The translations under genes were made by a program, and so were the position numbers. DNA of 64,000 bases from NCBI RefSeq assembly GCF_003226565.1, contig NZ_QKOE01000008.1, positions 62,001 to 126,000 on the forward strand, given 5' to 3'. Position 1 is the first letter of the stretch. Every line of letters starts with the position of its first letter. This stretch comes from Parazoarcus communis SWub3 = DSM 12120 (GTDB lineage: Bacteria > Pseudomonadota > Gammaproteobacteria > Burkholderiales > Rhodocyclaceae). This document shows, in pieces, positions 35,159-64,000 of this stretch. A model generated the notes under the pieces. The model did no database searches. It saw only the letters and a list, made by a program, of their open reading frames with translations, and was not told where the DNA came from.

Positions 35159-39801
<4,643 letters not shown>

Positions 39802-49368: not shown

Positions 49369-51531
49369 ATGGCAGGGCTCAGCCTCGGTCGCGGGATGCG
49401 CCAGCTGGCGGCGGCCACCGTCATCAGCCTGGTCGCGATCGCGTTGGTGATTGGGGCACACCTGTGGCAGATGCGCGGTGAGATCGAGGGCGTAGGGCGC
49501 AAGCAGATGGCTTCGGTCGCGGTGTTCCTGGCTTTTGAGGCGAACCGGCAGTTCACGGTTGCCCAACTGATTGCCGCAGATGCCATGCAGGCCTGGAAGG
49601 CCGGGGGGGATCCGGATGAACGGAACCAGACCATCCGTACTGCGTTTCAGCACGGCTTGCGCAATGACCCGGCGTTACGGGAGATCGTGCTGATCGATGC
49701 CGAGGGGCAGGTTCTGCTGGCCACCCGCGACGCCCTTCGTGGGCAGCGCCTCGCGGGTCACGACTTTCTGGCTGCGGCGCAACCGGAGCTTGCCTACCTG
49801 GGTTTGCCGCAGACCGGTCGCGGGCTGTTGCCCAGTATGCCCCCTGCACACCCGGCCGCAGCACAGGAAGGCTTCTTTACGCTGACCTTTGCCCAACAGG
49901 ATCTCCGGGTGGTGTTCGTGCTGGGGGCGGCGAACGTGCTCAATCATTTCGGGCGCCTGACTCAGGATGAGACGGGCGGAGAGGTTCGCCTGCACCGTTA
50001 CGATGGCGCTTTGCTGGCCAGCTCGCGAGCGGCGGCTGCAGGACCGAACCCGATTTTCCGCGACTTTCTGCCTGCAGTGGAGCGAGGGGGATTTGTCGAC
50101 GAAACCCCATCCGGCGAGGTCTGGTTCGCACATTTTGCGACGCTTGACGATTTTCCGCTGGTGATCGAATACCGCAGACCACAGGCTGCCCTGCTGGCAA
50201 GTTGGCGGGCCGAGTTGCGCTCGTCGGTGGTGACGCTGGCCGTGGTGTCGTTCATCGTGCTGATGTTTGCGGTGGCCGTCTTTCGTGTGCTCAGGGAGCT
50301 GACCGCAGCACGGGACGCCGCACAGGCGGCAGCTCAGGCCAAAGCCAGCTTCCTTGCGACCATGAGTCATGAGCTGCGTACGCCGATGCATGGCATTCTG
50401 GGCATGGCAGAGTTGCTCGATGCGTCGCCCCTGTCGCCGGCGCAGCGGGAACATCTTGCAGTGTTGCGCCGCTCCGGGCGTCTGTTGCTGACCATCCTCA
50501 ACGATGTGCTGGATTTCTCGAAGATTGATGCCGGGCATCTGACGCTTGAACGCATTGCCTTCTCCCCGCTCGATGAGGCTGGCGAGGTGATCCGGGTGCT
50601 GGAGCCAGCGGCACAGGCGCAGAACAATCAGCTCAGCCTGCTCGCCGACCCGGCCTTGGTGCAGCGGATGGGGGATCCGAACCGGTTCCGGCAGTTGCTG
50701 TTCAATCTGGTTGGCAATGCCATCAAGTTCACCCGCGATGGGTTGGTGCAGGTCCGACTCGAGTCGCTGGCCACAACACCAGGCGCCGTTCCCGTGTTGC
50801 GCTGCGAAGTGAAGGACTCAGGGATCGGCATCGCGCCTGAAGTGTTGTCGCGGCTCTTTACCGCTTTTGAACAAGGGGATTCTTCCACGACGCGAAAGTA
50901 CGGTGGAACCGGGCTTGGGCTGGCGATCTCCCGCAGGCTGGCGGAGGCGATGGGCGGGCGCATCGGGGTGGAAAGTCGGCAGCATGAAGGTGCATGCTTC
51001 TGGTTCGAGTTGCCGTTGCCACTTGCTGAGTCTGCACCCGTGCAGGTGTCGAGCATGCCGGCTACCGGGTCTTCCGCACGGGTGGCTGCACCGGCTGTTC
51101 CGTCGGCGGTGGAGGTGGAGGTGGAGGTGGAGGGGGCCGACCCCGCGCCGATTGTGAAGGGGCTGAAAATCCTGGTGGCGGAGGACAATCCGACCAACCG
51201 GATGCTGATTCAGGCGATGCTGGCCCGCAAGGGGCACCGCCTCGAGATGGCCGAGGATGGTCAGGCGGCGTTCGAGCGTGCGTCGGAAGCGGACTACGAT
51301 GTGGTGCTGATGGACATCCAGATGCCGCGCATGGATGGTTATCAGGCGGCAAGCGCGATCCGTGCATTGCCGGGGGCGAGGGCGCGGGTGCCGATTGTCG
51401 CGTTGACCGCCGATGCCTTGCTGGAGGAGCGGGACAAGGCACTGCAGAGCGGATTGTTCCAGCACTATCTGACCAAACCGATCGACTGGGCCTTGCTCGA
51501 TGCAACGCTGGCACGGTTCAAGCCGGTCTGA
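49369..51531 (+). CDS. Hybrid sensor histidine kinase with C-terminal receiver
   Basis: The 720-residue protein has TM1 (about 12-34), a periplasmic sensor region (about 35-285), TM2 (SVVTLAVVSFIVLMFAVAVF, about 286-306), HisKA with FLATMSHELRTPMHG (His about 335), ATPase domain ([19 protein letters not shown]) and a receiver at about 600-720 (LKILVAEDNPTNRML, VVLMDIQMPRMDG, YLTKPI). There is no HPt domain, so phosphotransfer needs an outside partner. The linker between ATPase and receiver holds a V-E repeat. It is co-transcribed with the binding protein upstream, which probably presents a ligand to its periplasmic domain. A BvgS-like logic with the binding domain as a separate protein is one model. 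Confidence 0.88.
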   Translation: MAGLSLGRGMRQLAAATVISLVAIALVIGAHLWQMRGEIEGVGRKQMASVAVFLAFEANRQFTVAQLIAADAMQAWKAGGDPDERNQTIRTAFQHGLRNDPALREIVLIDAEGQVLLATRDALRGQRLAGHDFLAAAQPELAYLGLPQTGRGLLPSMPPAHPAAAQEGFFTLTFAQQDLRVVFVLGAANVLNHFGRLTQDETGGEVRLHRYDGALLASSRAAAAGPNPIFRDFLPAVERGGFVDETPSGEVWFAHFATLDDFPLVIEYRRPQAALLASWRAELRSSVVTLAVVSFIVLMFAVAVFRVLRELTAARDAAQAAAQAKASFLATMSHELRTPMHGILGMAELLDASPLSPAQREHLAVLRRSGRLLLTILNDVLDFSKIDAGHLTLERIAFSPLDEAGEVIRVLEPAAQAQNNQLSLLADPALVQRMGDPNRFRQLLFNLVGNAIKFTRDGLVQVRLESLATTPGAVPVLRCEVKDSGIGIAPEVLSRLFTAFEQGDSSTTRKYGGTGLGLAISRRLAEAMGGRIGVESRQHEGACFWFELPLPLAESAPVQVSSMPATGSSARVAAPAVPSAVEVEVEVEGADPAPIVKGLKILVAEDNPTNRMLIQAMLARKGHRLEMAEDGQAAFERASEADYDVVLMDIQMPRMDGYQAASAIRALPGARARVPIVALTADALLEERDKALQSGLFQHYLTKPIDWALLDATLARFKPV
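51108..51131 (+). repeat. Hexanucleotide tandem repeat (GGTGGA)4 within the kinase gene
   Basis: Four perfect copies of GGTGGA encode alternating Val-Glu residues in the linker before the receiver domain. Copy changes would keep the frame and alter linker length only. Confidence 0.8.
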
Positions 51532-51579: not shown

Positions 51580-51660
51580 TATAGTCCCGCCTTTGGGGCG
51601 GGTGACCCGGGGAAACGCATCCGGATGCCCGTGCATATCCCTACTGGATGGTGCTCTGCC
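51580..51660 (+). promoter_or_regulatory. Putative promoter and structured leader of the pigment-locus plus arm
   Basis: TATAGT (51580-51585) is a good -10 without a clear -35 (TTCCGC). Directly after it CCCGCC pairs with GGCGGG (51586-51602), and a perfect 12-bp palindrome GCATCCGGATGC (51617-51628) follows. The palindrome overlaps one of two possible start codons (ATG 51625). If the other, GTG 51661, is used, all of this is untranslated leader. I do not recognise a known riboswitch. Confidence 0.35.
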
Positions 51661-52992
51661 GTGACGACTCTTGATGCTGTTTCTGCCCGGGATTGTGATG
51701 TTCTCGTAATCGGTGGCGGCCCCGCCGGTTCGACTGCGGCGGCCCTGCTGGCCGACAAGGGGCATCGGGTCGTGCTGCTGGAGCGTGCACGCCACCCGCG
51801 CTTCCATATTGGTGAGTCCCTGTTGCCAGCCAACCTGCGTCTTTTCGAGCAACTCGGTGTGGCTGAGGAGATCGCCGCCATCGGTATCCGAAAGTATTCG
51901 GCCGAGTTCGTTTCTCCGCATCATGACAACCAGCAGCGCTTCAACTTTGGTGAAGCTATGGATCGATCCATGCCATACGCCTATCAGGTGCGGCGCTCCG
52001 AGTTCGACCATATCCTGATCGGCAATGCGGCACGCAAAGGCGCCGAAGTCATCGAGGGTTGCCGCGTCAAGGACGTGGATTTTCACGCTGATGGGGCCAA
52101 TGTGATGGCCGAGCATGAAGACGGACGTCGTGAGCAGTGGGCGGCGCGTTTCGTCATCGACGCCTCGGGGCGCGACACCTTCCTCGCCAATCGCATGCGC
52201 GCCAAGCACCGCAACCCCAAGCACAACAGTTCGGCGATGTACGCCCACTTCGCCGGTGCGCGGCGCCACGAGGGGTGTGCCGAGGGCAACATCACGATCT
52301 ACTGGTTCGAGCACGGCTGGTTCTGGTTCATTCCGCTGTCCGACGGGGCCACCAGCATTGGGGCGGTGACCTGGCCCTACTACATGAAGCAGCGCAACGG
52401 GCGGTCGATGGAGGCCTTCCTCGACGACACCATCGCGCTGTGCCCGGCCTTGGTCGAACGCCTCAAGGACGCACATCGCGTGTCGCCGGTCGAGGCCACC
52501 GGCAACTTCTCCTATACCACCGACCATACCCATGGCGAGCGCTATGTCCTGCTGGGGGATGCCTATGCCTTCATTGATCCGGTGTTTTCATCCGGGGTCA
52601 TGCTGGCCATGCAGGGTGCCTTCTTTGGTGCCGAGGCGGTCGATACCTGTCTGCGTGATCCGGCGCGTGCGCCGCGGGCGCTGGCGCGTTTCGACAAGGG
52701 CGTGCGCCATGGCCCGCGCGAGTTCTCGTGGTTCATCTACCGCATGACCAATCCGACCATGCGCGACCTGTTCATGGGGCCGCGCAACACCCTGCGGATG
52801 AAGGAAGCACTGCTGTCGCTGCTGGCCGGTGACATCTACGGGCGCACGCCGATCTGGTTCTCGTTGCGCGCATTCAAGGTGGTCTATTACCTCTCGGCCC
52901 TGCGCCACCTGCCGCGTACCTTTGCCGCCTGGCAGCGGCGTCGGCGCAACATCCAGCCGGTTGAGGACGGCGAGATGGTGGCGCGCGGATGA
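51625..52992 (+). CDS. Flavin-dependent halogenase-like oxidoreductase of the pigment locus
   Basis: The product is 455 residues from ATG 51625, or 443 from GTG 51661, which has GGATGG eight bases upstream; both are possible. The N-terminus has the FAD dinucleotide motif DVLVIGGGPAGSTAA, then HIGESLLPANLRLF. The halogenase signature WxWxIP is present as WFWFIP (about residue 232), and VLLGDAYAFIDPVFSSGV is the second flavin motif. The family includes tryptophan halogenases and related reductases. In the xanthomonadin cluster a comparable halogenase-like gene stands next to the chorismatase gene, as here (4-base overlap). Halogenation of an aryl polyene or its ring is possible, but it could also be a non-halogenating oxidoreductase. 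Confidence 0.85.
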   Translation: MPVHIPTGWCSAVTTLDAVSARDCDVLVIGGGPAGSTAAALLADKGHRVVLLERARHPRFHIGESLLPANLRLFEQLGVAEEIAAIGIRKYSAEFVSPHHDNQQRFNFGEAMDRSMPYAYQVRRSEFDHILIGNAARKGAEVIEGCRVKDVDFHADGANVMAEHEDGRREQWAARFVIDASGRDTFLANRMRAKHRNPKHNSSAMYAHFAGARRHEGCAEGNITIYWFEHGWFWFIPLSDGATSIGAVTWPYYMKQRNGRSMEAFLDDTIALCPALVERLKDAHRVSPVEATGNFSYTTDHTHGERYVLLGDAYAFIDPVFSSGVMLAMQGAFFGAEAVDTCLRDPARAPRALARFDKGVRHGPREFSWFIYRMTNPTMRDLFMGPRNTLRMKEALLSLLAGDIYGRTPIWFSLRAFKVVYYLSALRHLPRTFAAWQRRRRNIQPVEDGEMVARG

Positions 52993-54011
52993 GTGCCTTG
53001 GGGGTATTGTGGCCACAAGGGCTGGACCAGGCGCTACCGCAGGACTTGCCTGCCGATCAGGTACTGGGTGAATTGCGTTTTGGGAAGGATGTCCTGCGTG
53101 ATGCAGGCCTGCCTTGTGTGCTCGTGCGCGTTCCCACGCTGCTGCCGGAGCAGCCCTGGCGGGCGGTGTGGTGGTCCGGTACCCAGGTGACTGCCGGGCA
53201 GCACGGAGCAGTCAGTTATCGGCATGACGGCCATATGCTGTTCGGCGCCGTTCGGGTGGACGAGGCCGAGTTTGCCCCCTCATCGGAAGCCAGTGCCTTG
53301 CAGCAGGCGGCGGAGCAGGCTTATCGCGAGATCTTCGCCGCGCTGCAACTGGCGGGCTATCCCGGTCTGTTCCGGGTGTGGAACTTCATTCCTGCGATCA
53401 ATCGCATCGATGAAGGTATCGAGCGCTACCGCCAGTTCAACATCGGGCGCCAGCTGGCGTTCGCGGCTTGTGGCCAGGCCCTGACGGGTCGGGTACCTGC
53501 AGCGAGTGCGCTCGGCGTGACCGACGGTGCGCTCGAGATCGGCTTCATTGCGACGCGGTGTGAGATGTTGGCAGTGGAGAATCCACGTCAGGTCAGCGCC
53601 TATCATTACCCGCAACGCTACGGCCCGCGCAGTCCGACCTTCTCCCGTGCTGCAGTGGCCCGGCACGATGGGCAGGACGTGTTGTTCATCTCCGGGACGG
53701 CGAGCATCGTCGGACACGAGTCCTTGCATCATGACGACGTCGAGGCCCAGACGGCCGAAACACTGACCAACATCGAAATGGTGCTCGACGAATCGGCCCG
53801 TCTGCTCGGTAGCGAGCGTACCGCGCCGGACGCACTTGCCTGCCTGGCCTATGTCCGCGCCGCTGGCGATCTGCCGCGGGTCCGGCTCCAGGTGCAGCGT
53901 GTCTTGGGTGGCGATGCCCGGGTGTGCTATGTCGAGGCCGATGTCTGTCGTGCTGAACTGAAGGTCGAGATCGAGGCCAGCGGTGGTCATCCGATAAGGG
54001 GAGCAATGTGA
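52989..54011 (+). CDS. xanB2: Chorismatase of the XanB2/FkbO-Hyg5 type (hydroxybenzoate synthase)
   Basis: The 340-residue protein has the RidA/YjgF-like chorismatase pattern. GLFRVWNFIPAIN is followed by IERYRQFNIGRQLAF, and later SGTASIVGHESLHHDDVEAQ is followed by ETLTNIEMVL. Xanthomonas XanB2 hydrolyses chorismate to 3- and 4-hydroxybenzoate, which feed xanthomonadin and ubiquinone. Hyg5 makes 3-hydroxybenzoate and FkbO a dihydrocyclohexadiene acid. Which product forms depends on active-site residues I cannot place from sequence alone. In this locus it most likely supplies the aryl starter. ATG overlaps the halogenase stop, and the next gene overlaps its own stop (GTGA). Confidence 0.85.
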   Translation: MSALGVLWPQGLDQALPQDLPADQVLGELRFGKDVLRDAGLPCVLVRVPTLLPEQPWRAVWWSGTQVTAGQHGAVSYRHDGHMLFGAVRVDEAEFAPSSEASALQQAAEQAYREIFAALQLAGYPGLFRVWNFIPAINRIDEGIERYRQFNIGRQLAFAACGQALTGRVPAASALGVTDGALEIGFIATRCEMLAVENPRQVSAYHYPQRYGPRSPTFSRAAVARHDGQDVLFISGTASIVGHESLHHDDVEAQTAETLTNIEMVLDESARLLGSERTAPDALACLAYVRAAGDLPRVRLQVQRVLGGDARVCYVEADVCRAELKVEIEASGGHPIRGAM

Positions 54012-54853
54012 CAAAGTCAGGAATCGCGGCGGTCCGCGTGGTGTGTGCGCTGCTTGCCGGTGCCTGTGGTGCGTCCATGGCGTGGGCGGAGGAGAAGCCG
54101 CTGTGGGAGCTTGGAATGGGGGTGGGCGCGGTGTCCTTTCCGGACTACCGTGGTTCGGACCGCCAGCGTACCCATGCCCTTGCGGTGCCGTACTTTGTCT
54201 ATCGCGGCGAGTTCTTCAAGGCTGATCGTGATGGCATCCGCAGCATTTTCTTCGATTCAGACCGGGTGCAGCTCAACCTGAGCCTGGCTGCCTCCTTGCC
54301 GGTGGACTCGGACGGCAACGGTGCCCGGCGTGGAATGCCCGATCTGAAGCCGACGGTAGAGCTGGGCCCTTCGCTCGAGATCAACCTGTGGCGCGCCACT
54401 GACCGCCATGCGCGTGTCGATCTGCGCCTGCCGGTGCGTGCCGCCTATACGGTCAAGGGGCCGGTCAAGCATGTCGGCGTGACCTTCACGCCTTTCATCA
54501 ATCTGGATATTGACCCCTTTGGCCATTCGGGCTGGAACCTCGGGATGATGGCCGGGCCGATCTATGCCAATGCGCGTCAGCATCGCTACTTCTATGACGT
54601 GAAGCCCGAGTTCGAACTCCCTGATCGCCCGACCTACAGGGCGAGTGGAGGCTATTCCGGTACGCAGTTCATCGCGGCCTTGTCCAAGCGTTTCGACCGT
54701 TACTGGGTTGGCAGCTTCGTGCGTTACGACACCCTGCGTGGTGCGGCTTTTGCCGATAGCCCGCTGGTCGAGCGGGATCGGGCCTGGGCGGCCGGCGTGG
54801 CGATTGCCTGGGTGCTGGGTGAGTCGTCGCAGAAAGTCCAGGTTGAAGACTGA
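54008..54853 (+). CDS. MipA/OmpV family outer-membrane protein
   Basis: The 281-residue protein starts at GTG 54008 behind AAGGGGAG and has a signal peptide (VCALLAGACGASMAWA). The mature part opens ELGMGVGAVSFPDYRGSD and continues with alternating beta strands (THALAVPYFVYRGEFF, LSLAASLPVDSDG, PTVELGPSLEINLW, GVTFTPFINLDID) ending in an amphipathic strand, the pattern of the MipA/OmpV barrel family. Members act as scaffolds for MltA or as small porins. Its position inside the pigment operon, coupled to both neighbours, suggests a link with the outer membrane, where aryl polyenes are lodged. Confidence 0.86.
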   Translation: MTKSGIAAVRVVCALLAGACGASMAWAEEKPLWELGMGVGAVSFPDYRGSDRQRTHALAVPYFVYRGEFFKADRDGIRSIFFDSDRVQLNLSLAASLPVDSDGNGARRGMPDLKPTVELGPSLEINLWRATDRHARVDLRLPVRAAYTVKGPVKHVGVTFTPFINLDIDPFGHSGWNLGMMAGPIYANARQHRYFYDVKPEFELPDRPTYRASGGYSGTQFIAALSKRFDRYWVGSFVRYDTLRGAAFADSPLVERDRAWAAGVAIAWVLGESSQKVQVED

Positions 54854-54861
54854 GTGACCCC

Positions 54862-55662
54862 GTGACTCAGGCTCCGCCACGTCGTTTCTCCCCGCTGTAC
54901 GAGGTCTTCTGCCTGTATGTCGGCCTTGGCGCGCTTGGCGTGCTTTGTCTGGGCTGGTCGCTGGTGGCGGCGATGTTGTATCCGTTCATGCCGGACGCGA
55001 GCGGACGCAGGCTGGGACGGCGGGCCATCACGACGGTGTTCCGCATCTATCTGCGCATCCTGACCCTGCTGGGTGCGTGCCGTTTCGATATCTCGGCGCT
55101 GGATGAACTGCGTGATCAGGGGCCGATGATCCTTGCGCCAAACCACCCCTGTCTGCTCGATGCGGTGATGGTGATCGCCCGTCTGCCCAATGTGGCCTGC
55201 ATCATGAAGGCATCGCTGCTGAAGAATGTCTTTCTGGGCGGGGGGGCACGGCTGGCACGCTACATCCCCAACGCGCGGCCCTTGCAGATGGTTTACGCCT
55301 CATGCGAAGCCCTGGCCGACGGTGGGCAGTTGCTGATCTTTCCCGAGGGTACGCGCACGGTACGTTATCCGGTCAACGAGATGATCCCCAGTGTGGCGCT
55401 GATCGCGCGCCGAGCCAAGGTACCGGTGCAGACCATCATCATCGAGACCGACTCCGATTACCTGTCCAAAGGCTGGCCCTTGTTCCGTCGCCCGCCGATG
55501 CCAATCCGCTACCGCATTCGCCTCGGGCGGCGCTTCGATCCACCGACGGATGCCACCGCCTTCGGCCGCGAACTCGAGGATTTCTTTGCCGCCGAACTGG
55601 CCCGTGCCGAACTGGTGCCGCCACAATTTCACGCGGCTGCCCGCAATACCTCTGCGGCATGA
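54862..55662 (+). CDS. PlsC-like lysophospholipid acyltransferase of the pigment locus
   Basis: The 266-residue protein starts at GTG 54862. A hydrophobic N-terminal region (YVGLGALGVLCLGWSLVAAM) is followed by the acyltransferase motifs: NHPCLLD (H-x4-D catalytic motif, near residue 93) and LLIFPEGTRTV (near 155). Aryl polyene and xanthomonadin loci carry such acyltransferases (XanD-like), believed to attach the polyenoyl chain to a lipid or sugar head. It is eight bases after the MipA gene and overlaps the GT2 gene by four bases, so it is part of one operon. Confidence 0.88.
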   Translation: MTQAPPRRFSPLYEVFCLYVGLGALGVLCLGWSLVAAMLYPFMPDASGRRLGRRAITTVFRIYLRILTLLGACRFDISALDELRDQGPMILAPNHPCLLDAVMVIARLPNVACIMKASLLKNVFLGGGARLARYIPNARPLQMVYASCEALADGGQLLIFPEGTRTVRYPVNEMIPSVALIARRAKVPVQTIIIETDSDYLSKGWPLFRRPPMPIRYRIRLGRRFDPPTDATAFGRELEDFFAAELARAELVPPQFHAAARNTSAA

Positions 55663-56447
55663 TCGCCACTGCTCCTGACATGCCACTGCCGTCCTCTTCG
55701 CATTTCGTGCTGATTCCAAGTTACAACCCCGGCGCCAAGGTGTTTGATACGGTGCAGGCAGCACGCGCGCAGTGGGCGCCGGTATGGGTGGTGGTCGACG
55801 GCAGCACTGATGGGACGGCCGAACAACTGCAGGCCTTGGCGGAACAGGACGAGGGGCTGGAGGTGTTCGTGCTGCCGACCAATCAGGGCAAGGGCAGTGC
55901 GGTGCTGCATGGCCTGGACGAGGCCGCCCGTCGCGGCTTCACCCATGCGTTGACGATGGACTCCGACGGTCAGCACCCGGCCGAGCTCATCCCGCGCTTC
56001 ATGCAGGCCTCCGCCCGTCGTCCTGATGCCATGATCCTCGGCAAGCCGGTGTTTGATGCCAGCGCACCCTTGTTGAGGGTGCGCGGACGCAAGGTGTCCA
56101 ACGCCTGGGCCAACCTCGAGACCTTGTGGATGGGCATTGGCGACTCGCTTTACGGTTTCAGGGTCTATCCGGTCGAGCCGCTGCGCAAGGTCATGCGCGG
56201 TCAGCGCTGGATGCGCCGCTTCGACTTCGATCCGGAGGCGGTCGTGCGACTGGCCTGGCAGGGGGTGCAGCCAGTGAATCTGGATGCGCCGGTCAAGTAC
56301 TTCAGTGCCGGTGAAGGTGGGGTGTCTCACTTCAATTATCTGCGGGACAACACCTTGCTGACCTGGATGCACAGCCGCCTGCTGGCGGGATTCCTGCTAC
56401 GTCTGCCGGTTCTGATCTGGCGGCGATGGATAGGGTCAAGGCGGTGA
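55659..56447 (+). CDS. GT2 glycosyltransferase of the pigment locus
   Basis: Start ATG 55659 overlaps the acyltransferase stop and gives 262 residues. FVLIPSYNPGAKVFDTV opens the GT-A fold, VWVVVDGSTDGT carries the first acidic pair, TMDSDGQHP is the DXD motif, and a short hydrophobic region near the C-terminus (LLAGFLLRLPVLIWRRW) may associate with the membrane. The phrase DSLYGFRVYP is typical of lipid-linked GT2 enzymes. Similar transferases occur in xanthomonadin and aryl polyene clusters and may glycosylate the polyene lipid. It is the last gene of the plus arm before an AT-rich gap. Confidence 0.88.
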   Translation: MIATAPDMPLPSSSHFVLIPSYNPGAKVFDTVQAARAQWAPVWVVVDGSTDGTAEQLQALAEQDEGLEVFVLPTNQGKGSAVLHGLDEAARRGFTHALTMDSDGQHPAELIPRFMQASARRPDAMILGKPVFDASAPLLRVRGRKVSNAWANLETLWMGIGDSLYGFRVYPVEPLRKVMRGQRWMRRFDFDPEAVVRLAWQGVQPVNLDAPVKYFSAGEGGVSHFNYLRDNTLLTWMHSRLLAGFLLRLPVLIWRRWIGSRR

Positions 56448-56631
56448 TACTTGGCTGTGTGGCGCTGTTGCAGTGCAATGTTTTTTAATGTCTTATCGAT
56501 CAGTATGGAAAAATATTGAATTCATTCATGCGACTAGCAAAATAATTTAAGTTTAAATAATTTGATGCGTTGCAATATTTCTCCTAGACTTCGGGCGTCG
56601 GTGCCGAGGATGTGGTGCCAGGAGAATGTTC
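56448..56631. other. AT-rich intergenic region before the GNAT-hydrolase gene
   Basis: These 184 bases are markedly AT-rich. They contain the palindrome TTGCA-G-TGCAA (56468-56478), direct repeats AAATAATTT around an ATTTAAGTTTAAAT inverted repeat (near 56541-56562), and a T run at 56481-56486. They probably hold the end of the pigment transcript and the promoter of the next gene. No coding sequence is seen. Confidence 0.5.
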
Positions 56632-57762
56632 ATGAACTATCGCTTCGCATCGCTGACGCCGGCTGATGAGCCGGCAATTGCCCTGCATCTGATGTCCCTC
56701 GACGTCGAGGACCGTGCCCTGCGCTTCGGCAGTCCAGTGACCGACGACATTCTGGGCGTGTATGCACAGGGCCTCAATTTCAACCGTGATGTCGCCGAAG
56801 GGGCTTGGGACGGTGGGCGCTTGGTGGGGCTGGCGCACCTTGCCGTTTTTCCCGAGGGTGGCTATCCGGTCGGTGAGTTGGGGCTGTCTATCGCGCCGGG
56901 GTATCGTCGGCAAGGCATCTCCAGTCTGCTTATCAAGCATGCAATCGCGCGTGCCCGGCGTTTCCGGCTTACCCGCATGTATGTGCATTACATGCGCCGA
57001 AATCTGGCGATGACGAGACTTGTCCGACATTTTGGCCTGGATGTCGAGTACTACGGAGACGAGGCGCGGGCCTCCCTCGAAGTGGTTCCGCGCGCGCAAA
57101 GCGTGTGGACGGAAACCCGCCGAGCCGGCCCGGGAGGGCGGCTGGAGGTTTTCCACCGCGCGTCAGTAAGGCCGCTGCGAGGGCATGTCCTGCTCGTCCA
57201 TGGTGCCGGGGGCGACGGCTGGCAATGGCGCTCCGTGATGGCTGAGTTGGCTGCGGCGGGGTACAGCGCACATGCGCTGTCCTTGAGCGGTCATGGCAGG
57301 AGTGCGCGAGCGGCGCCGACATTGGAGCGAATGCGGACGGATGTGGCCGAAATACTGGCGGAGTTGCCCGGTGACACTCGCCTGGTTGGTCATTCGATGG
57401 GGGGTTATCTGGTGCAGCGCGAGCTCATGGAGCGGGAATGTCCTGCAGCGGTGCTACTGGCGCCGGTTCCGCCCGATGTGCCGAGGGGGCAGGATCTGGA
57501 CGCTTTGCTCGCGGGGTTGAGCGGCCGCCAGGCACGGATGGTCGCTGCCAGTATTCTTGCCGAGGCTTCGGGTGTGGCGGTCGAGCGGGTGTCGACACCG
57601 GTGGCGCTGATCAGTGGTGACCGCGACCGGGTCATGCCCGTACCCTGGATGCGCGCAACTGCTGCGCGCTATCGCGCACAATGGACCCGTCTACCCGCCG
57701 GGCACAATCTGCCTGTGGTGACGGGGGTGGGCCGGGCGGTGGTATCCGGGTTGCTGTCTTGA
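56632..57762 (+). CDS. Fusion of a GNAT acetyltransferase and an alpha/beta hydrolase
   Basis: Start ATG 56632, seven bases after GGAG, is preferred over ATG 56626; the product is 376 residues. Residues 1-150 are a GNAT domain: VGELGLSIAPGYRRQGISSLL is the acetyl-CoA-binding motif A (R-R-Q-G-x-S). Residues about 180-376 are an alpha/beta hydrolase: VLLVHGAGGDGWQWRSVM gives the oxyanion region, LVGHSMGGYLVQ the nucleophilic Ser, ALISGDRDRVMP the acid and PAGHNLPV the catalytic His. Both parts look intact. The substrate and the reason for fusing them are unknown. It lies between the two arms of the pigment locus and is convergent with a diguanylate cyclase gene. Confidence 0.85.
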   Translation: MNYRFASLTPADEPAIALHLMSLDVEDRALRFGSPVTDDILGVYAQGLNFNRDVAEGAWDGGRLVGLAHLAVFPEGGYPVGELGLSIAPGYRRQGISSLLIKHAIARARRFRLTRMYVHYMRRNLAMTRLVRHFGLDVEYYGDEARASLEVVPRAQSVWTETRRAGPGGRLEVFHRASVRPLRGHVLLVHGAGGDGWQWRSVMAELAAAGYSAHALSLSGHGRSARAAPTLERMRTDVAEILAELPGDTRLVGHSMGGYLVQRELMERECPAAVLLAPVPPDVPRGQDLDALLAGLSGRQARMVAASILAEASGVAVERVSTPVALISGDRDRVMPVPWMRATAARYRAQWTRLPAGHNLPVVTGVGRAVVSGLLS

Positions 57763-57787
57763 CTGCCGACTGCCCACGTCTATTGGG

Positions 57788-59509
57788 TCAATTGATGACG
57801 GCGTGCTGACCTGAAACACAGAGCCGGTTGCGGCCTTCCGCCTTCGCCTTGTACAGCGCCTGATCGGCGCGGTGCAGAATGGTTTCCAGTGAGTCGCCCG
57901 GATAGGCCAGGCAGGCGCCGATGCTGACGGTCAGGCCGTTGTCGCCGGGGAGTTCGATCGAGCGCTCGACACCGCTGCGAATGCGCTCGCTGAGGCTGGA
58001 CAGGGTGTCGAGGTCGCAGGGCGACAGCAACACAAGAAACTCGTCTCCGCCCCAGCGCGCCGCGCAGTCATAGGGGCGGATGCTGGCCGTGAGCAGGCGG
58101 CCGACCGCGGCCAGGGCCTCGTCGCCCATCGCGTGGCCCAGGTAATCGTTTATTTCCTTGAACAGGTCGATGTCGATCCAGATCAGGCCGAAAGTGTGCT
58201 GCTCACGCAGGGCGCGGCTGATCTCGGCCTCCAGTCGCTCGTTGAGGCCGCGACGGTTGTGCAGTCCGGTCAGCGGATCGATGCTTGCCAGCCGGTGCAG
58301 GGCCTCGGTGCGTTCGGCAACGCGGTGTTCGAGTTCGCGGGTGTGGCTGCGCACGGCTTCGGCCATGTTGCTGAAGTGCCCGATCAGACGGCCGATCTCG
58401 CCTTTGCCACGAGGGAGCTCAAGTGGGGTCAGGTCGCCATCGCGCACTCTCAGCATGGCGGTTTCAAGTGCGCTGACCGGATCCAGCACCAGGCGGTTCA
58501 GCACCAGGTTGAACAGCGCCAGCGCGGCCAGCAGGGTGATGGCGAAGATCACCAGCACGCTGGCAAAGCTCTTGACCGGCATCAGCACATCGAGGTCGAG
58601 CAGGGTGATTTCGTACCAGTCGATTTCCGGCAGGTAAGCGATGCCGGCCAGGTATTCCCGACCCTCGACCTTGACGAAGCGGCTGATCACCCGGCTGCCT
58701 TCGTCGGCAGCGACGGCGGGTGCCCGGGCCAGTTCAAGCATGGCCTGCTGCAGATGCTGGCGATCCGCTTCGGTATCGACCATGCGGAACACGGTGTTTT
58801 TCTCACCCTCGCGCTTCACGATGCTGGCGAAATCGATATAGCGTGGGTCGCGATAGAGCTGGATCGCACCGTTGTGGTCGGCAAACAGGGTGGTGATGCC
58901 GGGTTGCTTGACGCGCACGATATCGCGGATGAAACGGTCGAGTTCCAGTCCGGTACCGGCGACGCCGAGAATGCGGTCGCCATCGCGGATCAGCACGTCG
59001 ATCCACAGCTTGGTGACCTTCAGTTCTTCGTCTGGATTGACGTTGAGGTGAAAGTCGCGGCCCTGGGCGACGATCTGGTAGAACCAGCTGTCTGCCGGTT
59101 TGTCGGGTTTCAGGTAATAACGCAGCTGTTGGCCGGAAAACTCATCTGCCGCGTTGTTGTGATAATAGGCGCCGGAATCAAGCAGGGCGACGAAGTAGCT
59201 GCGGTCCTGGAAGTTGCGGCGAAAACTCTCCATCTCGGCGAGGGCTTCGGTCTCCAGTTCCTTGTCCGTGGGATTCAATGCCCAGCGCCGGATCACCTGT
59301 GAGTCGGCCAGCTGGCGCGATAGCGCGATCTCGCGGTCCAGCGGCTGCAGCAGGCGGGCGGTGTCGTAGCGCACCTGTGTTTCGGCCAGGCGTACGCCCC
59401 ACTGTTCGATGATGCCGGCGGCGATGCGTTCGAAAGCCAGCCAGGCCGCCGCAGAGGCGACCAGGATGAGTGCCGCGGTTAGCAGCAGGAAGCGGGGCTT
59501 GAGGGTCAT
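57788..59509 (-). CDS. Diguanylate cyclase with periplasmic Cache-like sensor domain
   Basis: The 573-residue protein has TM1 (FLLLTAALILVASAAAWLAF), a periplasmic region of about 290 residues of Cache type (SYFVALLDSGAYYHNNAADE, DVLIRDGDRILGVAGTGLEL), TM2 (ASVLVIFAITLLAALALFNL), HAMP and a C-terminal GGDEF domain. The active site RWGGDEF is intact and RPYD five residues before GGDEF is a complete inhibitory I-site, so product inhibition is expected. It makes cyclic di-GMP. A 9-bp inverted repeat lies three bases before its ATG and covers the place of the ribosome site. It follows the antiporter gene on the same strand. Confidence 0.92.
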   Translation of the reverse strand: MTLKPRFLLLTAALILVASAAAWLAFERIAAGIIEQWGVRLAETQVRYDTARLLQPLDREIALSRQLADSQVIRRWALNPTDKELETEALAEMESFRRNFQDRSYFVALLDSGAYYHNNAADEFSGQQLRYYLKPDKPADSWFYQIVAQGRDFHLNVNPDEELKVTKLWIDVLIRDGDRILGVAGTGLELDRFIRDIVRVKQPGITTLFADHNGAIQLYRDPRYIDFASIVKREGEKNTVFRMVDTEADRQHLQQAMLELARAPAVAADEGSRVISRFVKVEGREYLAGIAYLPEIDWYEITLLDLDVLMPVKSFASVLVIFAITLLAALALFNLVLNRLVLDPVSALETAMLRVRDGDLTPLELPRGKGEIGRLIGHFSNMAEAVRSHTRELEHRVAERTEALHRLASIDPLTGLHNRRGLNERLEAEISRALREQHTFGLIWIDIDLFKEINDYLGHAMGDEALAAVGRLLTASIRPYDCAARWGGDEFLVLLSPCDLDTLSSLSERIRSGVERSIELPGDNGLTVSIGACLAYPGDSLETILHRADQALYKAKAEGRNRLCVSGQHAVIN

Positions 59510-59511
59510 GC

Positions 59512-59548
59512 GGTCCGGATCCGGTTATTTCTTGTTGTTATCCGGACC
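59512..59548 (-). promoter_or_regulatory. 9-bp inverted repeat immediately upstream of the diguanylate cyclase start
   Basis: GGTCCGGAT (59512-59520) and ATCCGGACC (59540-59548) are perfectly complementary with a 19-base AT-rich loop. On the messenger strand the stem ends two bases before the ATG and would hide the initiation region, where no open Shine-Dalgarno sequence is seen. It could be a terminator of the upstream antiporter transcript, a translation control stem, or an operator. Confidence 0.55.
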
Positions 59549-59603
59549 TTAGCACAGCTGACTCGGGTGAGGTTGTGAGCTTTGGCCGGCTGCTTCTGGC
59601 CCG

Positions 59604-60908
59604 CTACTCCCGCACCCGTGGCGGCAATGTATGGCCGATGAGCGGCAGCCAGCGGCGCAGGCAGGGCGTTGTGACCACTGTACTGAAGATGGCCATGATC
59701 ACCAGCATCGTGAACATCTGCTGGGAGATCACGCCGAGGTCGTAGCCCACGTTGATCACCACCAGCTCCATCAGTGCCCGGGTGTTCATCATGACGCCAA
59801 GGATGCCGGCCTCGTGATGGCCCAGCCCGCAACGCCTGGCCGCCAGATACGAGCCGCCAAACTTGCCGAGGGTGGCAAGTGCGATCACCAGCAGACACCA
59901 GCCCCAGTCGGTCAGGCTGTCGAGGCTGCCGATGTCGGTGCGCAGGCCGGTGTAGGTGAAGAAGATCGGCAGGAAGAACACGGTGACGAAATGCCCCACC
60001 CGGGTATTCCAGGCTTCGCGCAGGCCGTGCTCGTCATGCAGGATCACGCCCATCAGGAATCCGCCGAAAATGGCGAAGATGCCCAGCTGATACGTGCTCA
60101 TGCCGGCGACGAAGATCAATGCCAGCATCGCACCCATCAGGTTGGGCGGCAGCCGCCCGCGACCCGGGTTGGCACGGTGGACCAGGCGTTTGGCAAGCGG
60201 GCGGATGCCCCACCAGCTGAAGGCAAAGAACACCATTACCAGCACGACCTTGGTGGCAAAGGCAAGCGGATCGAGTTGCGACACTGCCAGCGTCGAGACC
60301 AGTGCCAGCAGCAGCCAGCCGACCACGTCGTTGATGGCTGCAGCGCTGATTGCGATGACGCCGAGCGGGCTGCGGGTAAGCTGGAATTCGATCATGATGC
60401 GGCCAAGAATCGGTAACGCGGTGATCGAGAATGCGGTGGCAATGAACAAGCCTGCAGTCAGCGGTTCGACGCCGTCAGGCAGCAGGGGCGTGGCCAGCCA
60501 GCCCAGCCCGAAACCGAAGGCGAAGGGCAGCAGCAGCCCGGCGCTGGCGACCCAGGCCACGGTACGGCGATGCTTGCGTTCGGTCAGGTGGCCGAAGTCG
60601 AACTCGAGGCCGATCTGGAACATCAGCAGCAACAGGCCGATCTGCGACAGGATCTGCATTGGCTCGGGTGGCGCGCTGCGAAACACCAGATCAAACAGAT
60701 CGGGCGCCAGCCAGCCGAACAAGGAAGGGCCGAGCAGGATGCCGGTAATGATTTCACCCACCGCCGAGGACTGGCCAAGGCGTACCGCGATTTCGCCACC
60801 GGCGCGTGCGGCAAGGATGATGATGGCCAGTTGCAGCAAGGTGAAGAACAGCAGTGCTTCGGTCTGATGCACGCTGACCGTGTGGAGTGCGTCGGCTGCG
60901 CTGCTCAT
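59604..60908 (-). CDS. Cation/proton antiporter, CPA2 (KefB/NapA-type) family
   Basis: The 434-residue membrane protein starts at ATG 60908, one base into the stop of the ketoreductase gene (TGATG). About twelve helices are visible. Conserved features include GEIITGILLGPSLFGWL in helix 2, LLLLMFQIGLEFDFGHL, ATAFSITALPILGRIM, AAAINDVVGWLLLALV with the Asn-Asp pair of electrogenic CPA2 antiporters, and FGGFLMGVILHD. There is no C-terminal TrkA-N domain. It would exchange Na+ or K+ for protons across the inner membrane. Its coupling to the pigment fatty-acid-like operon is unusual for housekeeping ion transport. Confidence 0.9.
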   Translation of the reverse strand: MSSAADALHTVSVHQTEALLFFTLLQLAIIILAARAGGEIAVRLGQSSAVGEIITGILLGPSLFGWLAPDLFDLVFRSAPPEPMQILSQIGLLLLMFQIGLEFDFGHLTERKHRRTVAWVASAGLLLPFAFGFGLGWLATPLLPDGVEPLTAGLFIATAFSITALPILGRIMIEFQLTRSPLGVIAISAAAINDVVGWLLLALVSTLAVSQLDPLAFATKVVLVMVFFAFSWWGIRPLAKRLVHRANPGRGRLPPNLMGAMLALIFVAGMSTYQLGIFAIFGGFLMGVILHDEHGLREAWNTRVGHFVTVFFLPIFFTYTGLRTDIGSLDSLTDWGWCLLVIALATLGKFGGSYLAARRCGLGHHEAGILGVMMNTRALMELVVINVGYDLGVISQQMFTMLVIMAIFSTVVTTPCLRRWLPLIGHTLPPRVRE

Positions 60909-61630
60909 CAGATCATGCCGCCGTTGATCGAGATGATCTGGCCGGTGATGTAGCCTGCCTGTTTCGAGGCCAGAAAACCGACCAGGTCGGCCACCTCTTC
61001 GGCGCGTCCGGCGCGTTTCATTGGCACGATGCGGGCGATGGCCTCGGCGTCGAAGCTCGCTTCGCTCATCGCGGTGTCGATGATGCCTGGTGCGACCGCA
61101 TTGACGGTGATGCCGCGTCCGGCCAGTTCCTGTGCCAGCGACTTGGTGGCGGAATGCAGCGCCCCCTTGGCGGCCGCGTAATTGACCTGACCACGATTGC
61201 CGGTAATGGCGGCTACCGAGGTGATGTTGATGATGCGTCCCCAGCGCGTGCGGATCATCGGCATTGTCAGTGGCTGGGTGAGGTTGAAGAAACCATGCAG
61301 GCTGACGTCGATGACCTTGTGCCATTGCGCGGCCGACATGCCGGGAAACACTGCATCATCGTGAATGCCGGCGTTGTTGACCAGGACCTGGATGGGGCCG
61401 TCGGCAAGGATGTTCTCGACTGCGGCAGCGGTCACTGCAGCATCGGTCAGGTCGAAGGCCACCGCCTGCGCATCGCCGCCAGCTGCGCGGATTTCCGCTG
61501 CCAGGGCCTCGGCTGCGGCAAGGTTGCGATTGGCGTGCACCAGCACGGCATGGCCATCGGCGGCCAGGCGCTGGCAGATTGCACGGCCGATGCCGCCACT
61601 GCCGCCGCTGACGAAGGCGCGTAGGGTCAT
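60908..61630 (-). CDS. 3-ketoacyl-ACP reductase (SDR family, FabG-like) of the pigment locus
   Basis: The 240-residue protein is a classical short-chain dehydrogenase: AFVSGGSGGIGRAI is the NADPH site, LVNNAGIHDDAV follows, ITSVAAITGNRGQVNYAAAKGAL contains the catalytic Ser, Tyr and Lys, and APGIIDTAM and ITGQIISINGGMI close the fold. It would reduce the beta-keto group during polyene chain extension. FabG-like reductases in aryl polyene clusters have this form. It lies 15 bases after the dehydratase gene and shares one base with the antiporter start. Confidence 0.9.
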   Translation of the reverse strand: MTLRAFVSGGSGGIGRAICQRLAADGHAVLVHANRNLAAAEALAAEIRAAGGDAQAVAFDLTDAAVTAAAVENILADGPIQVLVNNAGIHDDAVFPGMSAAQWHKVIDVSLHGFFNLTQPLTMPMIRTRWGRIINITSVAAITGNRGQVNYAAAKGALHSATKSLAQELAGRGITVNAVAPGIIDTAMSEASFDAEAIARIVPMKRAGRAEEVADLVGFLASKQAGYITGQIISINGGMI

Positions 61631-61645
61631 GGTTGGAGTCCGGTA

Positions 61646-62095
61646 TCAGGTGGATGAAGCCGTGACCAGAACGACTGCAGCACGGCCGCGTACGAGCGGG
61701 CCGGCAGCGCTGGCGACGGTAAAGGCGTAAAGCAGGGTGCGCGCGTCAGCCGACAGGCGCTCGGCGTGGATGGACAGGGCACCGTCAATATCGTCGAGGC
61801 GGTCGACCAGGCACTCCACACTGCGTGCGCTGCCAAGAAAACCCGGCGTGGGTGGCGTGCTGCTGCCAGCGAGCAAGGCACCATGCACGGCCATCGCCTG
61901 GGCCGCGTATTCGACGGCATTGAGCGCGCCCAGGCGGCCGCTGGCGCGCAGTGGATTGTCGATCCGACGGTGGCTGAGTGCGGAACAGCGAATCTGGTCC
62001 CCATCCCAGGCCTCGACGCGCTCGAGCAGACACATGCCGCCCTGGTGGGGAATGTGTGCCGCAATCCAGGCGTGATCGAGTTGCTGCGGGCTCAT
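61646..62095 (-). CDS. Hotdog-fold 3-hydroxyacyl-ACP dehydratase of the pigment locus
   Basis: Start ATG 62095 overlaps the preceding stop (ATGA) and gives 149 residues. The sequence HIPHQGGMCLLERVEAWDGDQ, followed by ALNAVEYAAQAMAVHGALL, is the FabA/FabZ-like hotdog pattern, with the catalytic His in PHQGG and the conserved Glu in the central helix (NAVEYAAQ). It would remove water after ketoreduction to give the conjugated double bonds. ApeI/XanE-like dehydratases of aryl polyene clusters match this size and place. A frame-shifted overlapping frame was rejected because it lacks these motifs. Confidence 0.85.
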   Translation of the reverse strand: MSPQQLDHAWIAAHIPHQGGMCLLERVEAWDGDQIRCSALSHRRIDNPLRASGRLGALNAVEYAAQAMAVHGALLAGSSTPPTPGFLGSARSVECLVDRLDDIDGALSIHAERLSADARTLLYAFTVASAAGPLVRGRAAVVLVTASST

Positions 62096-62898
62096 CCGAG
62101 GACGTTCACACACAAGCGGCTGTCGTCGACATAGTCGATCACCACTTCGGCGGCTTCACCGGTGGCGAGACGAGCCAGTGAATGCAGTACGGACAGACTG
62201 CGTGCGGCCGGAATGCCGCTGCGGATGCTTTCCAGTGCCGGGTTGTCCAGGGTGTCGGCGACGCGGTCAGTCAATTCGCCCAGGGCAATCCGGGGGCCGT
62301 CGGTGGCATGCGGATCCAGCAGCAGCGCCACGGCAAAGGCATCGTGCAAGGGCCGGGCTGCAGCGAGGGGTTCCGGATAGGGATGGTCGTAAACCACCAG
62401 CAACACCGGGGCGTCCAGGCTGGACGCCAGTGCAAGGGCTTCCACCAGCCCGGCGGCAAAGCTGCCATCGTAGGCCGAGACAATCGTCGAGGTCGCCATT
62501 GCGCCAGTGGCGATGCCCCAGTAGCCCGATGCGGCATTGTTGACCGAATTGTGGAAGCGGGTGGGTGAGATCAGACGGTCGTTGCCGGCCAGCGCCTCGC
62601 AGATCGCGTGGCAATTGGCGCCGTCACCGCCGGCAGAGGCGAATACCGTGGCCAGTGTGGCCGCATCTGCGCCTGCCGCCTCCACGGCCTGCATGCCGGC
62701 GACCAGCGCGAGCTTGACCACCGCACCGACGCGGCGACGTTCGGCAGGCGGCAGCATGGTGGGGCTGGGAATACGGGTTGCGGCGGGTTGCCAGCCGGTG
62801 GATGTCCCCTGAAGCACGGCACGGGCAGCATTCCAGTCGTCAAAGCCGGGGCCGATCATGCCGATGGCCCGGATGCCTGCTGAAAGCGGTGCTGTCAT
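62092..62898 (-). CDS. Beta-ketoacyl synthase-like protein (chain-length-factor type) of the pigment locus
   Basis: The 268-residue protein resembles the short ketosynthase-like family found in aryl polyene clusters (PF13723-type, often named chain length factor). RVGAVVKLALVAGMQAVEAAG, FASAGGDGANCHAICEAL, and FHNSVNNAASGYWGIATG are typical phrases. It is much shorter than a full ketosynthase, and the catalytic Cys and one His of the triad are not apparent in the usual context. It probably pairs with the full ketosynthase encoded just upstream, with which it overlaps by four bases (ATGA). Confidence 0.82.
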   Translation of the reverse strand: MTAPLSAGIRAIGMIGPGFDDWNAARAVLQGTSTGWQPAATRIPSPTMLPPAERRRVGAVVKLALVAGMQAVEAAGADAATLATVFASAGGDGANCHAICEALAGNDRLISPTRFHNSVNNAASGYWGIATGAMATSTIVSAYDGSFAAGLVEALALASSLDAPVLLVVYDHPYPEPLAAARPLHDAFAVALLLDPHATDGPRIALGELTDRVADTLDNPALESIRSGIPAARSLSVLHSLARLATGEAAEVVIDYVDDSRLCVNVLG

Positions 62899-64000
62899 CG
62901 GGCGTCTCCTGCCGGTCGCGAGAATACCAGGCTGCAGTTGGTGCCGCCGAAGCCCAGTGAATTCGACAGTACATGGCGCAGCGGGGCGGATTCCGGCTGC
63001 AGGCGGTAGGCGATGTCGATCCCCGGGTCGAGCTCACGGGTGCCGGGGCTGCCCGGCATCATGCCTTCGGCCAGGGCGATCGCGCAGAACACCGCCTCCA
63101 GGCCGCCGGCGGCACCCAGGGTGTGTCCGGTGGCACCCTTGGTGGAGCTGGCTGCGGTACGGTTGCCGAACAGGGTGCCAACAGCGAGGCCTTCGGCCGC
63201 ATCGTTGCTGGGGGTGCCGGTGCCGTGCAGGTTGATGTAGTCGATGTCGGTCGGTCGCAGTCCTGCGCAGGCCAGTGCCTGCTCCATGGCCATGCGTGCG
63301 CCAAGTCCTTGCGGGTGTGGTGCCGACATGTGGTGGGCGTCGCTCGATTCGCCATAACCGGAGAGCACGATGTCGGCCGGGCCGGGTGTGTCCGGCGCAC
63401 GTTCGAGCAGCACAAAGGCGGCGGCCTCGCCGATCGAGATCCCGCTGCGTGCCGGGTCGTAGGGCCGGCAGGGCTCGGGCGCGACCAGTTCGAGCGAGTT
63501 GAAGCCGTAGAGCGTGGTCAGGCAGAGCGAATCGACCCCGCCGACGATGGCTGCGTCGATCAGGCCACTGGCAAGCAGGCGTGCGGCACTGGCGAAGACC
63601 TTGGCGCTGGAGGAACAGGCGGTGGAGATGACCCAGGCCGGACCGGCCGCGCCGACTGCGTGGCGCACGAATTCGGCCACGGAAAAAATGTTGTGGCTGC
63701 CGCGATAGTGGAAATCTGGCGGCAAGGCGCCGCTTAGCGGGTCGCGTTGACGGTAGGCGAGCTCGGTTTCCAGGATGCCCGAAGTACTGGTGCCGAGCAG
63801 CACGGCCACCCGGCGTGCGCCATGGCGCGCAACGGCGTGCCGTGCGGCCTCGAGGAAACCGTCCTGTTGCAAGCCGAGCATGGCGAGCCGATTGTTGCGG
63901 CAATCGTAGTCTGCCAGTGCGGGTGCGAGGGGCGCTTGTTCCAGGCCGTTCACCCGGCCGATCCAGGTGTCGAGATCGACCGTCTCGAAATCGCAGGGGT
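62895..64000 (-). CDS. Beta-ketoacyl-ACP synthase of the pigment locus, truncated at the window edge
   Basis: The frame runs to the right edge without a stop or certain start. At least 368 residues are visible, and a GTG at 63953 is probably internal because coding-like sequence continues upstream. The catalytic triad is complete: Cys in WVISTACSSSAKV, His in INLHGTGTPSND and His in KGATGHTLGAAGG. The C-terminus VLSNSLGFGGTNCSLVF is the family ending. This is a FabF-like ketosynthase, as in type II polyketide-like aryl polyene assembly. It would extend the hydroxybenzoyl starter with malonyl-ACP. Its partner genes (carrier proteins, ligase, exporter) should lie further right. Confidence 0.9.
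   Translation of the reverse strand, partial: PCDFETVDLDTWIGRVNGLEQAPLAPALADYDCRNNRLAMLGLQQDGFLEAARHAVARHGARRVAVLLGTSTSGILETELAYRQRDPLSGALPPDFHYRGSHNIFSVAEFVRHAVGAAGPAWVISTACSSSAKVFASAARLLASGLIDAAIVGGVDSLCLTTLYGFNSLELVAPEPCRPYDPARSGISIGEAAAFVLLERAPDTPGPADIVLSGYGESSDAHHMSAPHPQGLGARMAMEQALACAGLRPTDIDYINLHGTGTPSNDAAEGLAVGTLFGNRTAASSTKGATGHTLGAAGGLEAVFCAIALAEGMMPGSPGTRELDPGIDIAYRLQPESAPLRHVLSNSLGFGGTNCSLVFSRPAGDAR

Follow-up and report, generated by a model that had tools for sequence, protein, structure and literature searches.

The 64,000-nucleotide stretch of the Parazoarcus communis SWub3 = DSM 12120 genome considered here (called the window; contig NZ_QKOE01000008.1, positions 62,001 to 126,000 of the forward strand) very probably holds, at its right end, the left part of a single contiguous locus of about 36 kb (51625-87539) with a pathway like that for arcuflavin, the yellow pigment of Azoarcus sp. 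BH72. The locus is a known kind of cluster with one linked extra gene, which encodes a radical SAM protein with a B12-binding domain. Its gene content, gene order and conservation are established here.

Coordinates are those of the window, extended past 64000 for the continuation; adding 62000 gives the position on the contig (C220, 165,642 bases, of which the window is bases 62001-126000), one of 231 in the 5.0 Mb genome. Gene starts were set at the earliest position permitted by the open frame, except where relatives indicated another. Genes are named after the BH72 arc and dar genes (PMC3949708). The genome itself is designated G000, and G001, G002, G003 and G004 belong to the same genus.

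Extent of the locus

The window cuts through the cluster: the arcK-like ketosynthase gene extends to 64100, 100 bases past the right edge, and the same contig carries on. Inside the window, two convergent arms meet near 57.77 kb, between 57762 (plus strand) and 57788 (minus strand). The first-pass annotation had placed overlapping genes for a flavoprotein, a chorismatase, an acyltransferase and a family 2 glycosyltransferase in one arm, and those for a ketosynthase, its short partner, a dehydratase and a ketoreductase in the other; family scans confirmed this gene set, and overlaps of 4 bases were located in the plus arm at arcA/arcB, arcB/arcC and arcD/arcE. Intergenic gaps range from -4 to 8 bases between arcA and arcE and from -22 to 15 between arcG and arcK.

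The same annotation had read the locus as an arcuflavin-like aryl polyene cluster, and extension to the right supported this reading by yielding acyl carrier proteins (ACPs), an AMP ligase, an MMPL exporter, DarB and an adjacent DarA candidate. Its remark that no dialkylresorcinol gene lies inside the window holds, but its term arcuflavin-like applies better than it supposed when it allowed that the product may differ from arcuflavin, as dar genes lie about 13-22 kb past the edge. With these genes on the same contig, the reading of a locus devoid of dialkylresorcinol genes was rejected. DarB (83619-84773, minus strand) scored 610 bits with PRK06816 (cut-off 450). The DarA candidate (84766-85725, minus strand) was assigned from position, no Pfam or NCBIfam model having matched it; it adjoins darB in all eight fetched relatives with a dar locus. 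It has a 33% match in Streptomyces beside a KAS III gene, and in the plasmid collection it matched three Streptomyces records annotated as "hypothetical protein".

Several points weigh against the arcuflavin-type assignment. Families for arcF, arcL, darG and darH were unmatched among the locus proteins scanned; the chorismatase, DarB-equivalog (504 bits, cut-off 550) and FlxB models matched under their curated cut-offs; the darA, darD, arcI and arcU assignments rest on position; and, relative to the BH72 table in PMC3949708, the locus has extra genes, namely those for the radical SAM protein, a patatin/Omp85 protein, an alpha/beta hydrolase, a GGDEF protein, a 4HBT protein and a GNAT-hydrolase fusion.

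Conservation in related genomes

Nearly the whole set was found in one region, with order kept and 55-95% identity, in G001 and G002, and over two contigs in G004 (55-96% identity over the three genomes); because order and identity are kept in these three genomes, the genes are considered as real rather than as chance open frames. Co-occurrence was assessed in 101 genomes (G000 included), with p values uncorrected for kinship. The ligase was found in 25/101 genomes (E 1e-30) and the chorismatase in 21/101, every one of them with the ligase. DarB at no less than 60% identity was present in nine of the 101, matches of 37-43% (G000:C144, G004:C43, G067 and G073), among them those of 37-38% in two further genomes, being left out. 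The G000:C144 match (35849-36940, 42% identity) is a distant DarB-like ketosynthase additional to that of the locus, and G004 has one as well.

These distributions bear on a rival product, in which a xanthomonadin-like polyene would be exported as some other ester while the neighbouring dar genes make a separate, free dialkylresorcinol. Each half can indeed stand alone, since G003 possesses the arc genes and gave neither a DarB nor a radical SAM match, and G058 has dar genes with no ligase match at 1e-30. This product is nevertheless improbable, as dar genes are accompanied by the ligase in 8/9 genomes (Fisher p 4e-5) and, in BH72, the ester was detected and free resorcinol was not (PMC3949708). 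The presence of arc and dar genes in one place fits their making one molecule, as the arcuflavin-type assignment proposes.

A gene for a radical SAM protein with a B12-binding domain

The radical SAM gene (75612-77237, minus strand; C220:137612-139237) sits between arcV and darJ and has no counterpart in Table 1 of PMC3949708. A start at 77429 was dropped, as relatives begin with M/V-R-V/I-T, corresponding to 77237 here. The protein carries PF02310 (1.2e-15) and PF04055 (2.4e-24), and its CxxxCxxC motif (CPYTCSFC at residue 211) has three cysteines invariant in 30/30 sequences. The cobalamin motif is DxHxxG; inspection by eye showed HDCMG at residue 49, without a histidine at the corresponding place. 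All 24 NCBIfam matches were far under their cut-offs (best, HpnJ, 162 vs 578), and because no family model scored above its cut-off the protein was not filed as a methyltransferase. A structural model built from 30 sequences (mean pLDDT 73.5) gave AprD4 (4.1e-20), TsrM, MgmA, OxsB, CysS and TokK as best structural matches. The two domains and the motif at 211 liken the protein to HpnJ, BchE, AprD4, TsrM, TokK and CysS, none of these being assigned by curated models.

Orthologs with identity of 72% or more were found in 11/101 genomes, a 28% match in G009 being left out as a twelfth. The ligase is present in 10/11 genomes with the radical SAM gene versus 15/90 without it (p 1.6e-6, the own genome and its genus included and kinship uncorrected). 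Linkage was then examined around the best 80 (69-89% identity) of 178 relatives, many of them on short contigs, so that misses partly reflect cut contigs. Thirteen marker genes were searched within 10 kb (at least 28% identity and at least 60 bits), arcA being counted additionally. One or more markers were found in 53/80 loci, 52 of these at 40% identity or above, and three or more arc/dar genes in 49/80; arcA alone was found in four further loci (L054, L060, L068 and L109), for a total of 57/80 linked loci. According to record titles, linked loci, which come in several arrangements, are mostly from Rhodocyclales; the remainder come from Nitrosomonadales (Ferriphaselus among them), Chromatiaceae and Verrucomicrobia.

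Within 3 kb, the nearest matched gene was arcA downstream in 42 of the 80 loci, arcE upstream in four and arcV in four; in another four the gene lay between arcV and a ketosynthase gene, either DarJ or a different one. In Azoarcus indigens DSM 12121 (L051) it adjoins arcV. The neighbour was a chorismatase gene in one locus, arcN in two, a FabG-like gene in two, a GGDEF gene in one and no matched gene in 18, and in two Verrucomicrobia it was a ketosynthase gene, one of these loci also having a chorismatase. A ligase was searched elsewhere in the genome for 28 of the 80 genomes. Among the 23 unlinked genomes, 16 gave a strong match outside the locus (each with a best E of at most 1.6e-92), two a weak one (L072 and L078) and five none (L070, L101, L102, L120 and L124); the genome of the linked locus L060 gave no ligase match either. 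L072 and L078 have a ketosynthase 42-43% identical to arcK, and perhaps possess a different aryl polyene type.

From this company, we infer that the protein may tailor the polyene or the ring. There is about an even chance that it serves, so far unrecognised, in tailoring aryl polyenes of xanthomonadin/arcuflavin type, for instance by C-methylation or some other radical chemistry on the polyene or ring while bound to the ACP; the pigments of many Rhodocyclales, of Nitrosomonadales and of purple sulfur bacteria would then carry a modification absent from that of BH72. A chance placement, or one with another cause, of a gene unrelated to the pigment is a possible but less probable explanation. 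It would account for the 23/80 loci without markers or arcA (five of those genomes lacking a ligase match), for two Ereboglobus loci in which the gene lies beside a FabG-like gene (one also by an ACP gene), for a conservation higher than that of the pigment genes (83% mean column identity over the 11 orthologs) and for BH72, which makes its pigment with no radical SAM gene in its arc/dar table (PMC3949708). It does not readily account for linkage in 57/80 loci, in several arrangements and four groups, or for the co-occurrence with the ligase. A search of literature titles, with subscription journals mostly outside its reach, gave no title on a radical SAM enzyme of aryl polyenes, xanthomonadins or flexirubins, and nothing joining aryl polyenes with cobalamin-dependent enzymes. 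The protein, considered as a putative tailoring enzyme, may matter more than the pigment locus, since such enzymes modify carbon atoms beyond the reach of other enzymes, and since a pigment role is simple to test given how often its gene occurs near those for aryl polyenes.

Chorismatase and starter supply

The arcB-like chorismatase (52989-54011, plus strand) matched PF21168 (1.9e-37) and TIGR04444 (238 bits, under the cut-off of 325). Using phmmer, it matched 5ag3 (6.3e-48), which we take to be Hyg5, and FkbO 4bps (4.2e-38); 5ag3 is deposited as a putative pteridine-dependent dioxygenase. Residues Gly236, Cys320 and Glu327 align with residues 240, 327 and 334 of 5ag3, and are kept in 44/44 aligned chorismatases (this one and 43 from fetched loci). 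A subfamily Gly and Cys and an active-site Glu are named in PMC7170507, to which these residues would correspond with a numbering offset of 9 deduced in the present analysis; a third subfamily mark given there (Gly-164 of Nat-hyg5) is Ala174 here, with Ala in 42/44 and Thr in 2/44. Which product a chorismatase makes cannot be told from its sequence alone (PMC3949708). The enzyme likely converts chorismate to 3-hydroxybenzoate, and probably yields 4-hydroxybenzoate as well.

The latter product raises the possibility that, in this genus, the chorismatase additionally feeds ubiquinone synthesis in place of a missing UbiC, the double role stated for XanB2 in PMC3949708. The arguments are evenly balanced. 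UbiC (PF04345) is absent in 5/5 genomes of the genus, all with a chorismatase, and in the own genome PF01947 is absent and UbiA present (341 bits, cut-off 275); against this, the lack of UbiC is distributed at chance relative to the chorismatase over the 101 genomes (9/21 vs 24/80, p 0.30), a result that leaves such a role without support as a general rule.

Halogenase-type flavoprotein

The first gene of the plus arm (arcA-like, 51625-52992) encodes an FAD-dependent flavoprotein of halogenase type (Trp_halogenase 118 bits, FAD_binding_3 93 bits). The WxWxIP motif reported in the first-pass annotation was recovered as GWFWFIP at residue 231, together with GESLLP at 63 and RKYSAEF at 89. The motif is presumably a mark of halogenases, and the protein keeps the lysine, assumed here to be catalytic, that 8zop, 7fco and 5buk have at the aligned position. 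Since among PDB entries it matches flavin halogenases best (8zop, 3e1t and 7fco) and both motif and lysine are retained, a pigment brominated or chlorinated by this protein, as in Xanthomonas, might be envisaged. Such a modification, which the first-pass annotation had called possible and which is neither supported nor refuted here, is rather unlikely: BH72 has an arcA gene annotated as halogenase and yet a non-brominated pigment (PMC3949708), for which reason halogenation cannot be claimed, and in G057 and L058 the surroundings of the chorismatase gene showed no arcA.

Directly upstream of arcA, a hybrid histidine kinase with a receiver domain is encoded at 49369-51531 (plus strand); it could be a pigment regulator, BH72 having arcW/arcX.

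Other genes of the locus

The plus arm continues with an arcC-like MipA/OmpV outer-membrane protein (54008-54853; PF06629, 3.9e-43), an arcD-like PlsC-type acyltransferase (54862-55662; PF01553, 1.8e-14) and an arcE-like family 2 glycosyltransferase (55659-56447; PF00535, 1.9e-18 in a scan from 55575), the start codon of which (ATG, 55659) overlaps the stop codon of arcD. The last gene (56626-57762), a GNAT and alpha/beta-hydrolase fusion, begins 178 bases after arcE and had no match at the corresponding place in G001, G002 and G003.

On the minus strand, a diguanylate cyclase (57788-59509; GGDEF, 9.7e-46) stands at the meeting point of the arms, where G001, G002 and G003 have it too (69-70% identity); it perhaps provides a regulatory link to cyclic di-GMP. 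The arcG-like Na+/H+ antiporter (59604-60908; PF00999, 2.2e-54; TIGR00932, 135 bits, under the cut-off of 238) might look foreign but belongs to the arm, because the BH72 set includes arcG. It is followed by an arcH-like 3-ketoacyl-ACP reductase (60908-61630; PRK05653-type FabG, 358 bits, cut-off 273; FlxB model, 274 bits, under the cut-off of 340) and an arcI-like hotdog-type dehydratase (61646-62113). The latter was assigned mainly from position, with no Pfam family at 0.001 and an ApeP-like match of E 0.016 under cut-off, and has 65-66% identity in G001-G003. The arm within the window ends with an arcJ-like short ketosynthase partner (62092-62898; PF13723, 99 bits, 3.1e-28) and the arcK-like ketosynthase (62895-64100; PRK09185, 537 bits, cut-off 407).

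All genes listed to the right of the window are on the same contig and on the minus strand. They encode a methyltransferase (64213-64926), a NodB-like deacetylase (64923-65738), a patatin phospholipase joined to POTRA/Omp85 parts (65812-68022), an alpha/beta hydrolase (68242-68898), the MMPL exporter (68895-71282; MMPL, 7.7e-14), LolA (71279-71839; LolA_3, 3.8e-24), an LpxL-like acyltransferase (71836-72795), a FabA-like hotdog protein as second dehydratase (72792-73121), the AMP ligase (73118-74521), an arcU-like protein without family assigned from position (74487-75149) and an ACP (75146-75427). G001 and G002 carry the patatin/Omp85 gene at 68% identity; in the G003 stretch it was not seen.

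Beyond the radical SAM gene lie genes for a DarJ-like ketosynthase of 519 residues (77401-78960), a second ACP (78957-79223), an ABC permease (79233-80471), a 4HBT protein (80478-80975), an ABC ATPase (81079-82032), a BtrH-type DarE (82116-83117; DarH model, 464 bits, cut-off 300) and DarD, assigned from place and conservation (83218-83616). The C-terminal 179 residues of the DarJ-like protein, considered as a second arcJ-like short ketosynthase, gave no Pfam match and no blastp similarity, and this candidate was rejected. Directly downstream of the DarA candidate, a beta-lactamase/AmpH-type serine hydrolase is encoded at 85722-87539; such a hydrolase also stands beside the DarA candidate in G001, G002, G004 and G030.

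Proposed pathway

The chemistry, product and pigment role proposed for the locus are inferred mostly by analogy with BH72, in which ArcB makes 3-hydroxybenzoate, ArcT activates it and the proposed pigment is a non-brominated aryl heptaene ester of a resorcinol (PMC3949708). The chorismatase would supply a 3-hydroxybenzoate starter, which the AMP ligase would load onto an ACP, and a type II set (ketosynthase, short ketosynthase partner, ketoreductase and two dehydratases) would build the polyene, a methionine-derived methyl group being added by the methyltransferase. DarA, DarB and DarC would form the dialkylresorcinol, and an acyltransferase would join it to the polyene as an ester. The MMPL exporter, LolA and the outer-membrane protein would carry the pigment outward, where it would probably protect against oxidation.

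Comparison with known pigment systems

Flexirubins are likewise polyene esters of a resorcinol, and both the ketoreductase and LolA match flexirubin models, under cut-off in each case. Flexirubin clusters differ from the present locus in their starter, which is tyrosine-derived, whereas a chorismatase starter is predicted here. Resemblance to the Xanthomonas xanthomonadin cluster lies in the chorismatase starter (XanB2), the type II fatty-acid-like set and the acyltransferase; the latter cluster differs in having no dialkylresorcinol and in brominated forms such as the dibrominated xanthomonadin I (PMC3949708).

The closest comparison is with Azoarcus sp. BH72, for which Table 1 of PMC3949708 lists arcA (halogenase), arcB (chorismatase), arcC (MipA), arcD, arcE, arcG (antiporter), arcH-arcK, arcM, arcN, arcP-arcV and dar genes, and in which insertion into arcK or arcT gives colourless mutants. 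By family and order, not by alignment, the present locus matches arcA-E, G, H, J, K, M, N, P-T and V and darB, C, E, F, I and J; from place only, it matches arcI, arcU, darA and darD. The pigment locus thus adds one more example to a kind already published, and a useful one since its arc and dar genes, which form separate loci in BH72 (PMC3949708), share one contiguous locus here.

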